Source of the DNA: Pseudomonadota bacterium
GTDB taxonomy: Bacteria > Pseudomonadota > Gammaproteobacteria > Pseudomonadales > Moraxellaceae
Direction: 5' to 3'
Length of the DNA: 34,851 nucleotides
Assembly (NCBI GenBank): GCA_021781515.1
Contig: JAJXWR010000021.1
Span: 1-34,851 of the forward strand
Part shown: positions 7,482-32,953 of the stretch, piece after piece
Numbering within the stretch: the stretch's first letter is position 1
Layout: each line of letters starts with the position of its first letter
Position numbers and translations under genes: made by a program
Notes under the pieces: generated by a model
What the model was told of the DNA's origin: nothing
The model's input: the letters and a program-made list of their open reading frames with translations, nothing else
Databases searched by the model: none

Positions 7482-7506
7482 GTAACAGGGGGTAACGGGG
7501 TGTTAC
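7482..7506 (+). promoter_or_regulatory. GTAAC/GTTAC activator-like site (UAS), copy A
   Basis: GTAAC at 7482-7486, again at 7492-7496, and GTTAC at 7502-7506: three half-sites spaced exactly 10 bp, the last two forming an inverted repeat around GGGGT. The same arrangement occurs at 30485-30509, and GTAAC direct repeats at the same 10-bp step recur at 29068-29096. The site lies 85 bp upstream of a sigma-54 promoter, the usual position for an enhancer-binding protein such as NtrC or CbrB. CbrB is the activator of the analogous Pseudomonas RNAs; its identity here is inference. Confidence 0.65.
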
Positions 7507-7591
7507 TCGACGTAGCGGAAAAATGCAGTGAGCGTAGAGGTGTGTTTTAATAAACATCATTTAATCAATAGGATAGATGTATAAAAAATAG

Positions 7592-7606
7592 TGGCACGGT
7601 TCCTGC
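7592..7606 (+). promoter_or_regulatory. Sigma-54 (-24/-12) promoter, copy A
   Basis: TGGCACGGTTCCTGC matches the sigma-54 consensus TGGCACG-N4-TTGCW with one change and has the required GG-N10-GC spacing. It is preceded by a stretch shared with copy B (AAAAAATAGTGGCAC). Confidence 0.75.
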
Positions 7607-7617
7607 TTTATTTATAT

Positions 7618-7886
7618 TGCCAGATGATGAAAAATAAAAATGGCAAATAAAAATAACAAGACAATAAAAATAAAACAAATTATATAAATAAATAATAAGA
7701 ATAAATACCAAAACAATAAAAGCAATACAATAAAAGCAATAAAATAAATACAAATAATAATAACGCACAAAACAATAAATAAATTAAGTGAATGTCGTAT
7801 AAAAAAAACAAAAAACCACAAAAAAACAAAAAACCACAATCCATAAATGATGAGCACCGGGAGATGAAGTCTCCCGCTCCATCCTC
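7618..7886 (+). ncRNA. Putative sigma-54-dependent A-rich small RNA, copy A (CrcZ/CrcY-like architecture)
   Basis: The predicted start is about 12 nt after the -12 GC. The next 230 nt or so are strikingly A-rich and almost free of G, dominated by AAN-type triplets such as ACAATAAAA and AATAATAATAACG, with an 18-nt tandem repeat at about 7808-7838. AAN repeats bind the distal face of Hfq (family knowledge). The end carries CGGGAGA-TGAAG-TCTCCCG (7858-7876) inside a sequence almost identical to copy B. It resembles the Pseudomonas CrcZ/CrcY RNAs, which titrate Hfq-Crc in catabolite repression. There is no poly-U after the hairpin, so the 3' end is uncertain. No protein is encoded. Confidence 0.6.
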
Positions 7887-29753: not shown

Positions 29754-30152
29754 TCATTGATGCATGGCCACACGGGCAGCCTCAACCAGAAAGCCGCTGC
29801 GACTCAAGCCGTGAGCCTTAGCATATGCATCTATGCGTGCAAGTATCAAGCGCGGTATGGTTATGTTGATTTTTTCGGCAGGTCCAAGGTACTTTTCAAC
29901 AGGGACATCCACCACAGCCCAGATCCAGCCCGCATATTCTGGTTCCGACTGAATCTCAGATAGCGATCGAGCGGCAGGAATTGTCACACCGTCCTCAATC
30001 ATGATTTCAACATGCTGATCTATGGCCAGGCGAGCATTTTCCATCGCTTCGTCCATCGTGTCCCCAGCAGAGAAGCAGCCTGGCAGATCAGGTACAGCCA
30101 CTCCCCAAGCGGTGGAGTCTGTTCCAGGCTCAAGGGCAATGATAAATTTCAT
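29754..30152 (-). CDS. hicB: HicB antitoxin with C-terminal ribbon-helix-helix domain
   Basis: A 132-residue protein. The N-terminal degraded RNase H fold reads GVAVPDLPGCFSAGDTMDEA and ENARLAIDQHVEIMIEDG; the C-terminal DNA-binding part reads INITIPRLILARIDAYAK and LSRSGFLVEAARVAM. It should bind HicA and repress its own promoter. Its ATG overlaps the hicA stop by 4 nt. It appears intact, whereas its partner HicA is scrambled in the middle. Confidence 0.93.
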   Translation of the reverse strand: MKFIIALEPGTDSTAWGVAVPDLPGCFSAGDTMDEAMENARLAIDQHVEIMIEDGVTIPAARSLSEIQSEPEYAGWIWAVVDVPVEKYLGPAEKINITIPRLILARIDAYAKAHGLSRSGFLVEAARVAMHQ

Positions 30153-30484: not shown

Positions 30485-30509
30485 GTAACATAGGGTAACG
30501 GGGTGTTAC
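30485..30509 (+). promoter_or_regulatory. GTAAC/GTTAC activator-like site (UAS), copy B
   Basis: GTAAC at 30485-30489 and 30495-30499 and GTTAC at 30505-30509, the same 10-bp rhythm and GGGGT centre as copy A, 86 bp upstream of the sigma-54 promoter. Confidence 0.65.
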
Positions 30510-30595
30510 CTCACGTAGCGAAAAAATTGGGGTATGTCCGTCAGTGTATTTCAATAAACTCATTTTATTCAATGAAATAGATGCAGAAAAAATAG

Positions 30596-30610
30596 TGGCA
30601 CAGATCATGC
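30596..30610 (+). promoter_or_regulatory. Sigma-54 (-24/-12) promoter, copy B
   Basis: TGGCACAGATCATGC has GG-N10-GC spacing and the TGGCAC block. It lies in AAAAAATAGTGGCAC, identical to copy A, while the spacer bases differ. Confidence 0.75.
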
Positions 30611-30621
30611 TTTGTATATAA

Positions 30622-30841
30622 TGTTGCAAAATAAAAAAACAAAGCGACAAAAAATTAAAATAATAAAGCTCACTAAAAATAATAAAACGCACTATAACAA
30701 GAATACATAAATATAAAAATCAACTAAAAACAATAATAAAACCGAACAATAATAAAAAAACATTTATAAATTCAAATAAATAAAACAGCTAAATACCCGT
30801 AATGATGAGCACCGGGAGACGATGTCTCCCGCTCCATGCTC
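30622..30841 (+). ncRNA. Putative sigma-54-dependent A-rich small RNA, copy B
   Basis: About 220 nt. The middle is A-rich with AAN-type runs (AACAATAATAAAA, AAACAATAATAAAACCG) but differs in sequence from copy A, while promoter and 3' end are conserved. The end folds as CGGGAGA-CGATG-TCTCCCG (30813-30831) inside an outer GAGCA/TGCTC stem (30807-30841). This pattern, conserved ends around a divergent A-rich body, suggests that composition rather than exact sequence is selected, as for an Hfq or Hfq-Crc titrating RNA like CrcZ/CrcY (inference from family knowledge). No poly-U follows, so the 3' end is uncertain. Confidence 0.6.
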
Positions 30842-31660: not shown

Positions 31661-32953
31661 TCACCTCGCATCCAGATAATCGCTGTACCACAGGCCACCC
31701 AGCGGCAAACCTTCGGCCACCATGTTTTTGACAGTGGGGTCATCGCTTGCTCTGTGGATTAACGAATAGCCATCCGGTCCCTTTTCCAGAATCCAGACTT
31801 CAGCGGGTTCCAAGGCATCTACCAGATAGGGCTGATGGGTCGTAATGAACACCTGAGAGCCGCCCTTGCGGCCTGTTGCGTGCTCGCGGAATTCCTTTGC
31901 CAAGGATTCAAGAAGTTTATGGTACAAGCCATTTTCCGGCTCTTCAATACATAAAAACGGTGGGGGTGTTGGATCTTCGAGCAACAGGAGGTAGGCGAAT
32001 ACCTTCAATGTGCCATCAGACATTTGTTGCGAATAAAAGGTGTCTTGAAAACCTTTGTCATTGAACCGCAGTAGCAAGCGGCCATCGTTTGTTTTTTCTG
32101 TGTCAATCTTGTTGATGCCGGGAATTTTTTCGGCAATTCGCTTCAAAATGGCCTGGAATTGCTTTGGATGTTCCCGCTCCATGAATTGCACGACGTTTCC
32201 GAGATTGTCGCCGTGGCTGTTGAGATGTTTCTGTGGGCCGGCGAGGGGCAGGCTCCTTGCTGCGTCTGGAGTGAAATAGCTGAGGTACCACCCTTCGATA
32301 AACTTGCGGAATGCGGAAATCCTCGGATGCTGTTTCAATGAACCCAGCGTGGCAATCCCCAGCTTGCGCTGGTCGTCAAGCTCAACAACCTCGGTTTCTG
32401 TAGACTCTTCTTCCGCCTCACCTGATTCAATGGACTGAATCAGACCAAACAGATCAAATACATCGTGTTCTTCATCGATCTGTCGGCCTTCTTGATCGCC
32501 TTTCCAAACAATACCTTTTCCACTGTTCAACAAGAGAAACGAGAAGGGCCATCCGTGTTTCTGACCTTTTCGCCGCTGTCTGAGACGTTCTTTCAAGACA
32601 TAAGGCCGACCTGAATGATCAACATTAATGGATATTTCATAAGTGATTGGACGGGCATTCCCATCCTCCTTGTAATAGACCTCAAATTCGATGGGCCCTT
32701 TTTGACCTTGTGCCCGGATACGCTCAAAACCGCCCCTGCCGCGAGAGTCGCACGCCTCTTCGACCCCAGATTTTAAGGCATCCGCAAGAAACCCGAAGGC
32801 ATCAAGCAACGTGCTCTTGCCTACACCATTCTTTCCAATAACCGCCGTCATGGGGGTGAGGGGATCAGTCTGTTGTTGATTCCAGAGGCGACCGAGTGTC
32901 ACGTCTTTGAGCGACCTGAAATTCTTTATTCTAATACCTTCAATCGTTGCCAT
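31661..32953 (-). CDS. AAA/ABC-type ATPase of a defence-like pair (AAA_21, OLD-like)
   Basis: A 430-residue protein. Seen: IRIKNFRSLKDVTLG, Walker A GKNGVGKSTLLDAF near residues 40-53, the ABC-like signature QQMSDGTLKVFAYLLLL, Walker B PPFLCIEEPENGLY and the H-loop VFITTHQPYLVDAL. This is the SMC/RecF-like ATPase of OLD, RloA, AbiL and PARIS-type systems, which pair with a TOPRIM or RloB-type effector; the DUF4276 gene 4 nt downstream fits that place. It follows the type III restriction gene by 55 nt on the same strand, so it could be carried as an accessory of that locus. The ATPase appears intact although its partner is broken. Confidence 0.9.
   Translation of the reverse strand: MATIEGIRIKNFRSLKDVTLGRLWNQQQTDPLTPMTAVIGKNGVGKSTLLDAFGFLADALKSGVEEACDSRGRGGFERIRAQGQKGPIEFEVYYKEDGNARPITYEISINVDHSGRPYVLKERLRQRRKGQKHGWPFSFLLLNSGKGIVWKGDQEGRQIDEEHDVFDLFGLIQSIESGEAEEESTETEVVELDDQRKLGIATLGSLKQHPRISAFRKFIEGWYLSYFTPDAARSLPLAGPQKHLNSHGDNLGNVVQFMEREHPKQFQAILKRIAEKIPGINKIDTEKTNDGRLLLRFNDKGFQDTFYSQQMSDGTLKVFAYLLLLEDPTPPPFLCIEEPENGLYHKLLESLAKEFREHATGRKGGSQVFITTHQPYLVDALEPAEVWILEKGPDGYSLIHRASDDPTVKNMVAEGLPLGGLWYSDYLDAR

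Follow-up and report, generated by a model that had tools for sequence, protein, structure and literature searches.

CrcZ has been described as an RNA that titrates Hfq, with (ARN)n repeats bound on the distal face of the protein (PMC4063720). In P. putida, according to PMC6296734, CbrB recognizes the subsites TGTTAC (F) and GTAACA (R) at a spacing of 20-25 bp, and IHF is placed between these subsites and the sigma-54 promoter. The CbrAB system was called unique to Pseudomonadaceae, with a synteny known only in Pseudomonas and Azotobacter (PMC8871633), and both CbrAB and the cbrA-cbrB-crcZ synteny are stated as confined to these two genera in the passages concerned (PMC8871633; PMC6296734). 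The host family of the DNA studied here, which contains Acinetobacter, is the Moraxellaceae: the organism shares its GTDB family with genus g15, and a 1.2-kb segment of a g15 genome gave matches, at 80%, to Acinetobacter baumannii records alone. No description of CrcZ or CbrAB in this family was found among the titles and the beginnings of abstracts of the open-licence literature. We propose here that two loci of a moraxellacean genome, copies A and B, are probably two of six CrcZ-type Hfq decoy RNA genes activated by CbrAB and sigma-54, which were amplified and dispersed in this lineage.

The window, that is, the whole stretch of 34,851 nucleotides that was analyzed, is an entire contig (G000:C41) of a draft genome of 2.79 Mb, assembled in 142 contigs and 96% complete. 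All features of copies A and B are on its forward strand. In copy A, the activator sites (7482-7506) consist of three half-sites, GTAAC at 7482, GTAAC at 7492 and GTTAC at 7502, and adjoin a ACGTAGCG block (7510-7517) which is identical in all six copies. These half-site words correspond to the CbrB-type subsites GTAACA / TGTTAC, following the consensus given in PMC6296734. The sigma-54 promoter TGGCAC-N6-TGC (TGGCACGGTTCCTGC) is located at 7592-7606, 85 bp after the last half-site. An IHF-like site occupies a fixed position at 7563-7575, 29 bp 5' of the promoter; it differs by one mismatch from the IHF consensus WATCAANNNNTTR and is individually weak (shuffle P 0.09). Placing the start of the RNA body 12 nt past the -12 GC, at 7618, gives an A-rich and G-poor body of 230 nt (7618-7847; 65% A, 7% G), followed by a conserved 3' element, TGATGAGCACCGGGAGA..TCTCCCGCTCCA, at 7848-7881. 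Thus, the three half-sites at 10-bp steps, the GG-N10-GC promoter 85 bp further on and the nearly G-free stretch of about 230 nt that the initial annotation had reported all stand. Copy B (30485-30836) follows the same plan, with activator sites at 30485-30509, a sigma-54 promoter (TGGCACAGATCATGC) at 30596-30610, an A-rich body of 181 nt at 30622-30802 (61% A, 6% G) and the conserved 3' hairpin element at 30803-30836. This copy is flanked by a HicB-like antitoxin gene (29754-30152) and by an AAA_21 (AbiEii-type) ATPase gene (31661-32953).

Two copies had been recognized initially, and both are indeed in the window, but the genome holds six, the others being located on contigs C53 (one), C142 (one) and C134 (two, 3.9 kb apart). 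The other five copies share 68-85% identity with copy A, too little for assembly duplicates of it. The activator sites, the ACGTAGCG block, the promoter (TGGCAC-N6-TGC in 6/6) and the 3' element are near-invariant across the six copies, whereas the bodies drift in sequence with an A content that stays at 61-65% and a G content of 4-9%. The window contains the exact pattern GTAAC-N5-GTAAC-N5-GTTAC two times, in copies A and B, as against none in 100 dinucleotide shuffles, and genome-wide this pattern is present only at the six loci. With up to one mismatch, the triple site gave 18 matches in the whole draft genome, all at the six copies (on either strand or overlapping), and the backwards control pattern gave none. 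The promoter hexamers alone, with two mismatches allowed, showed no enrichment in the window (137 observed vs. 142 expected); their only two perfect matches there are those of copies A and B. When both strands of the window were scanned for at least 60% A and at most 10% G over 200 nt, copy A alone was retained (7 of 6932 overlapping segments); copy B, which has a shorter body, was below this cut.

The genes flanking the six copies vary from copy to copy and in comparison with the sister species of the same genus, represented by the MAGs LL7.bin33 (G002) and SKS4.bin34 (G018). No copy of this genome lies beside cbrB, and pcnB is absent among the genes near the six copies. Six scattered copies with sharp homology limits could also be expected from a MITE-like or other mobile repeat, spread over the genome, which carries a sigma-54 promoter by chance and has no regulatory role. 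Moreover, in a FastTree phylogeny of the promoter regions the six copies form one clade (0.991) beside the sister-species copies, therefore they multiplied within this lineage, and an amplification into contexts differing from those of the sister species also fits a mobile element. We nevertheless consider this explanation very unlikely, since the promoter, the activator sites, the hairpin and the body composition were all kept, since the same arrangement stands beside cbrB in other genera, and since no terminal inverted repeats were seen when the ends were inspected by eye in the copy alignment.

We measured the coverage of the RNA body by four consecutive ARN units against dinucleotide shuffles. 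ARN repeats cover 53% of copy A vs. 24% in its shuffles, and the coverage is significantly above shuffles in four of the six copies (A, C, D and E); by the same measure, copies B and F present no ARN enrichment beyond base composition. Coverage was also clearly above shuffles in the five relatives tested (5/5) and in a Pseudomonas-type CrcZ reference. The 3' hairpin noted initially in copy A is supported by folding (z-score -3.4, with -3.0 to -4.2 in the four other copies folded). One correction is needed: no T-run follows it at 7848-7881, so that it is not a textbook intrinsic terminator. No covariation of the hairpin was detected within the six copies, and an alignment of 15 hairpin sequences was discarded as misaligned. 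As sigma-54 promoters often drive mRNAs and no T-run terminator was seen, the transcripts might be 5' leaders or mRNAs of small peptides and not stand-alone decoys. We regard this as very improbable: no sense-strand stretch free of stop codons exceeds 38 codons in copies A and B, the downstream genes vary among copies, and the next recognized gene after copy A, encoding a fumarase, starts about 0.8 kb downstream.

The Rfam CrcZ model (RF01675), which had been suggested as a check, does not recognize copy A (11.1 bits vs. a cut-off of 95). It gave no match at E<=0.01 in this genome and none at gathering threshold in the window, and the matches obtained under permissive settings (MicX, miRNAs, snoRNAs, weak CrcZ) were rejected as far below cut-off. 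The same model gives 20-21 bits for the loci of genus g13 that have the full crcZ synteny (see below). Over 244 genomes of the order, it matched 60 at E<=0.01 and reached the cut-off in 11, therefore RF01675 is probably narrower than the spread of CrcZ-like loci.

The initial annotation had pointed out that the absence of rpoN would exclude the promoter, and had advised a search for cbrAB. The genome encodes RpoN as well as Hfq, the latter being present in all eight genomes tested. Among its six sigma-54 activators, two are NtrC and NorR by curated cut-offs. Searching with the CbrB of a Pseudomonas-type crcZ locus (L153) as query, we found a CbrB orthologue on contig C5 (58.9% identity, 535 bits, vs. 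305 bits for the next activator), and the preceding gene encodes a full-length CbrA (49% over 981 aa). No RNA copy was found downstream of cbrB on this contig; the gene located there, read by eye, is presumably smpB. The half-sites have the words of the P. putida CbrB subsites but follow each other every 10 bp, whereas those of the g13 genomes show a Pseudomonas-like spacing of 21-23 bp. NtrC, NorR and the three other sigma-54 activators were set aside as regulators because the half-sites fit CbrB and the RNA gene co-occurs with CbrB.

A DNA search of copy A in 199 genomes of the family gave, outside its own genome, only A-rich low-complexity matches among three candidates scored per genome; because of this number of candidates it was replaced by promoter models. 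The first model (R1), built from the six promoters, found further loci in the family. Fourteen weak R1 loci were inspected: those of Acinetobacter, without activator sites plus promoter, were rejected, and those of G048, G054 and G040 were genuine and kept. CbrB itself is encoded in 28 of the 199 genomes, which belong to 8 of the 16 genera; the genomes sampled from Acinetobacter (g15), g8, g6 and g10 all lack it. A broader promoter model of 23 sequences (R2) was run on the 28 CbrB-bearing genomes and on 12 CbrB-less genomes chosen by hand from 171. At E<=1e-5, it matched 25/28 CbrB-bearing vs. 0/12 CbrB-less genomes, and 15/18 vs. 0/12 once the ten genomes of training sequences were removed. 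Among the CbrB-less genomes, G016 came closest to this cut, with a match at 1.4e-5. Three CbrB-bearing genomes (G001, G007, G037) had a best match weaker than 1e-5, which in G001 and G037 is beside cbrB.

Reading of the coordinates showed that 20 of the 28 CbrB-bearing genomes have a promoter match on the strand of cbrB and no more than 0.4 kb downstream of it; the match was not adjacent or not seen in the studied genome (G000) and in G002, G018, G005, G021, G004, G020 and G007. Thus, none of the three genomes of the genus studied has the match directly downstream of cbrB. Two g13 genomes (G046 and G058; loci L162 and L163) present the order cbrA-cbrB-RNA-pcnB-folK, and in g3 copies follow cbrB immediately and another one stands immediately before pcnB. 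A location between cbrB and pcnB is thus seen in g13 and partly in g3, and for none of the six copies of this genome (0/6). The Pseudomonas-like order of these sister genera lends weight to the CrcZ/CrcY architecture proposed initially, and, together with RpoN, CbrAB and Hfq, to the view that the locus is a homologue or analogue of CrcZ/CrcY in a different gammaproteobacterium.

A pattern scan of genomes gave 31 loci, and the arrangement was seen in SKS4.bin34, LL7.bin33, LL7.bin50, JABEVH MAG 27, LL7.bin25 and two Natronospirillum records. The SKS4.bin34 copy (L099, on G018:C46, minus strand, downstream of 187) has a body largely made of head-to-tail AACAAAA units, which suggests growth of decoy bodies through the expansion of tandem repeats. 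LL7.bin25 is labelled Bacteroidetes; its 3-kb contig (L133, JAJZHJ010000349.1, 2392-2509) carries a copy very similar to E and F and is probably mis-binned. The Natronospirillum records (L119, 843-961; L128, 2755-3115) contain a CrcZ-like RNA gene whose promoter follows the same plan and which has AACAAAAACAACAA-type motifs. In L128 this gene precedes pcnB and then, presumably, folK, panB and panC, as named on the basis of their protein sequences; the place of cbrB before it is taken by a peroxiredoxin-like gene. Other loci of the scan (Paraburkholderia/Burkholderia, Desulfobacterales and others) were dropped as their downstream sequence is not A-rich, and an Anaerosalibacter locus was dropped as its A-rich stretch resembles a coding gene. 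Seven of the Paraburkholderia/Burkholderia loci (L110, L113, L115, L116, L125, L134, L136) share a half-site plus sigma-54 pattern of 132-133 bp, which may be a conserved sigma-54 promoter with another role. Also, in four Acinetobacter genomes (L074, L083, L084, L089), a conserved A-rich stretch, AGATGATAAAAACAACGAAA..., follows a T-run hairpin downstream of one gene, and no sigma-54 promoter was seen there.

A search for crc had also been advised. The sole Exo_endo_phos protein found in this draft genome (96% complete) is encoded on contig C117 (L062) beside pyrE, the neighbour of crc in a Pseudomonas-type genome. It shares 36% identity with Crc but keeps the ExoIII residues QE, GDFN and SDH, where Pseudomonas Crc has QD, GSLY and SQH. 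According to PMC3662782, the Ser and Tyr replacements explain why Crc is not a nuclease. Since the ExoIII residues are intact in the crc-position protein, no Pseudomonas-type Crc, that is, one without a nuclease active site, was found in this genome, and a Pseudomonas-type Hfq-Crc complex is not supported. The other Moraxellaceae genomes checked likewise have an ExoIII with intact active site in the crc position. Carbon-repression phenotypes have been reported for crc mutants of one Acinetobacter strain (PMC8312277), which makes a regulatory role of the crc-position protein conceivable. The main partner of CbrB/sigma-54-activated A-rich RNAs could be this ExoIII-like protein, or poly(A) polymerase, RNases or another A-binding protein, with Hfq secondary. 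In this sense, the RNAs contain 61-65% A vs. 33% in the Pseudomonas-type CrcZ reference and have no internal hairpins, and pcnB, which encodes poly(A) polymerase, comes after the RNA gene in some sister genera. We find such a partner unlikely in view of the Hfq present in every genome tested, of the ARN phasing, significant in copies A, C, D and E as well as in relatives, and of the pcnB neighbourhood, which is common to Pseudomonas crcZ, a known Hfq decoy.

We therefore return to Hfq decoys as the preferred reading, and infer from the sequences that the genes are transcribed, that CbrB and Hfq bind, and that the RNAs act as decoys with an effect on carbon use. The six genes would produce non-coding RNAs, each about 220-270 nt long, with the mode of action of CrcZ and CrcY in Pseudomonas. 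Once CbrA, the sensor kinase, is active, CbrB would bind the three half-sites, which are separated by roughly one helical turn, and activate the sigma-54 RNA polymerase at TGGCAC-N6-TGC. The A-rich RNA, with its tripartite ARN repeats, would then bind several Hfq hexamers on their distal face and draw Hfq off the A-rich ribosome-binding sites of catabolic mRNAs, allowing their translation, and the 3' hairpin may end or protect the RNA. The gene would descend from a crcZ kept after cbrB in sister genera, copied in this lineage to at least six intergenic places with loss of internal hairpins and G residues. More tentatively, and with somewhat less than even confidence, we suggest that the CbrAB-sigma-54-RNA-Hfq circuit predates Pseudomonadaceae and the nuclease-dead Crc; in this lineage it might need no such Crc, Hfq acting alone or alongside a still-active ExoIII in the crc position, and would be strengthened by six dispersed, stripped and nearly G-free decoys.

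These data place CbrB in eight genera of the family of Acinetobacter, with the RNA gene beside cbrB in most such genomes, and a pcnB-linked RNA gene also in Natronospirillum, beyond the range stated for Pseudomonas and Azotobacter. The origin of Hfq-decoy control thus becomes testable, namely whether it was working before Crc lost its nuclease residues. They also raise the question of why CbrB is lacking in Acinetobacter and in a number of other genera of this family. The six-copy, body-only version represents a minimal decoy of natural origin, with which one could ask what number of Hfq hexamers is diverted in a cell.

Among known systems, Vibrio Qrr1-5 are similar in that several sigma-54-dependent RNA genes are under one response regulator; they have other activator sites and no A-rich body, and act by base-pairing through Hfq. 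CsrB, RsmY and RsmZ carry GGA motifs for CsrA/RsmA, in contrast to A-rich motifs for Hfq. They resemble the present RNAs by repeated protein-binding motifs that titrate a global post-transcriptional repressor, an analogy drawn in PMC4063720. The closest likeness is with CrcZ, CrcY and CrcX of Pseudomonas and Azotobacter: CbrB-type half-sites, a sigma-54 promoter, A-rich putative Hfq-binding motifs with ARN enrichment in four of the six copies, a 3' hairpin, more than one copy per genome and, in sister genera, the position between cbrB and pcnB. However, the predicted RNAs are of about 220-270 nt vs. about 400, are not recognized by RF01675, have bodies of 61-65% A and 4-9% G without internal hairpins, and are preceded by half-sites at steps of 10 bp instead of 20-25 bp; the six copies are beside neither cbrB nor pcnB, and no Pseudomonas-type Crc was found in the draft genome. 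The new features are thus the absence of a nuclease-dead Crc, the lineage, the six dispersed copies and the body-only design.
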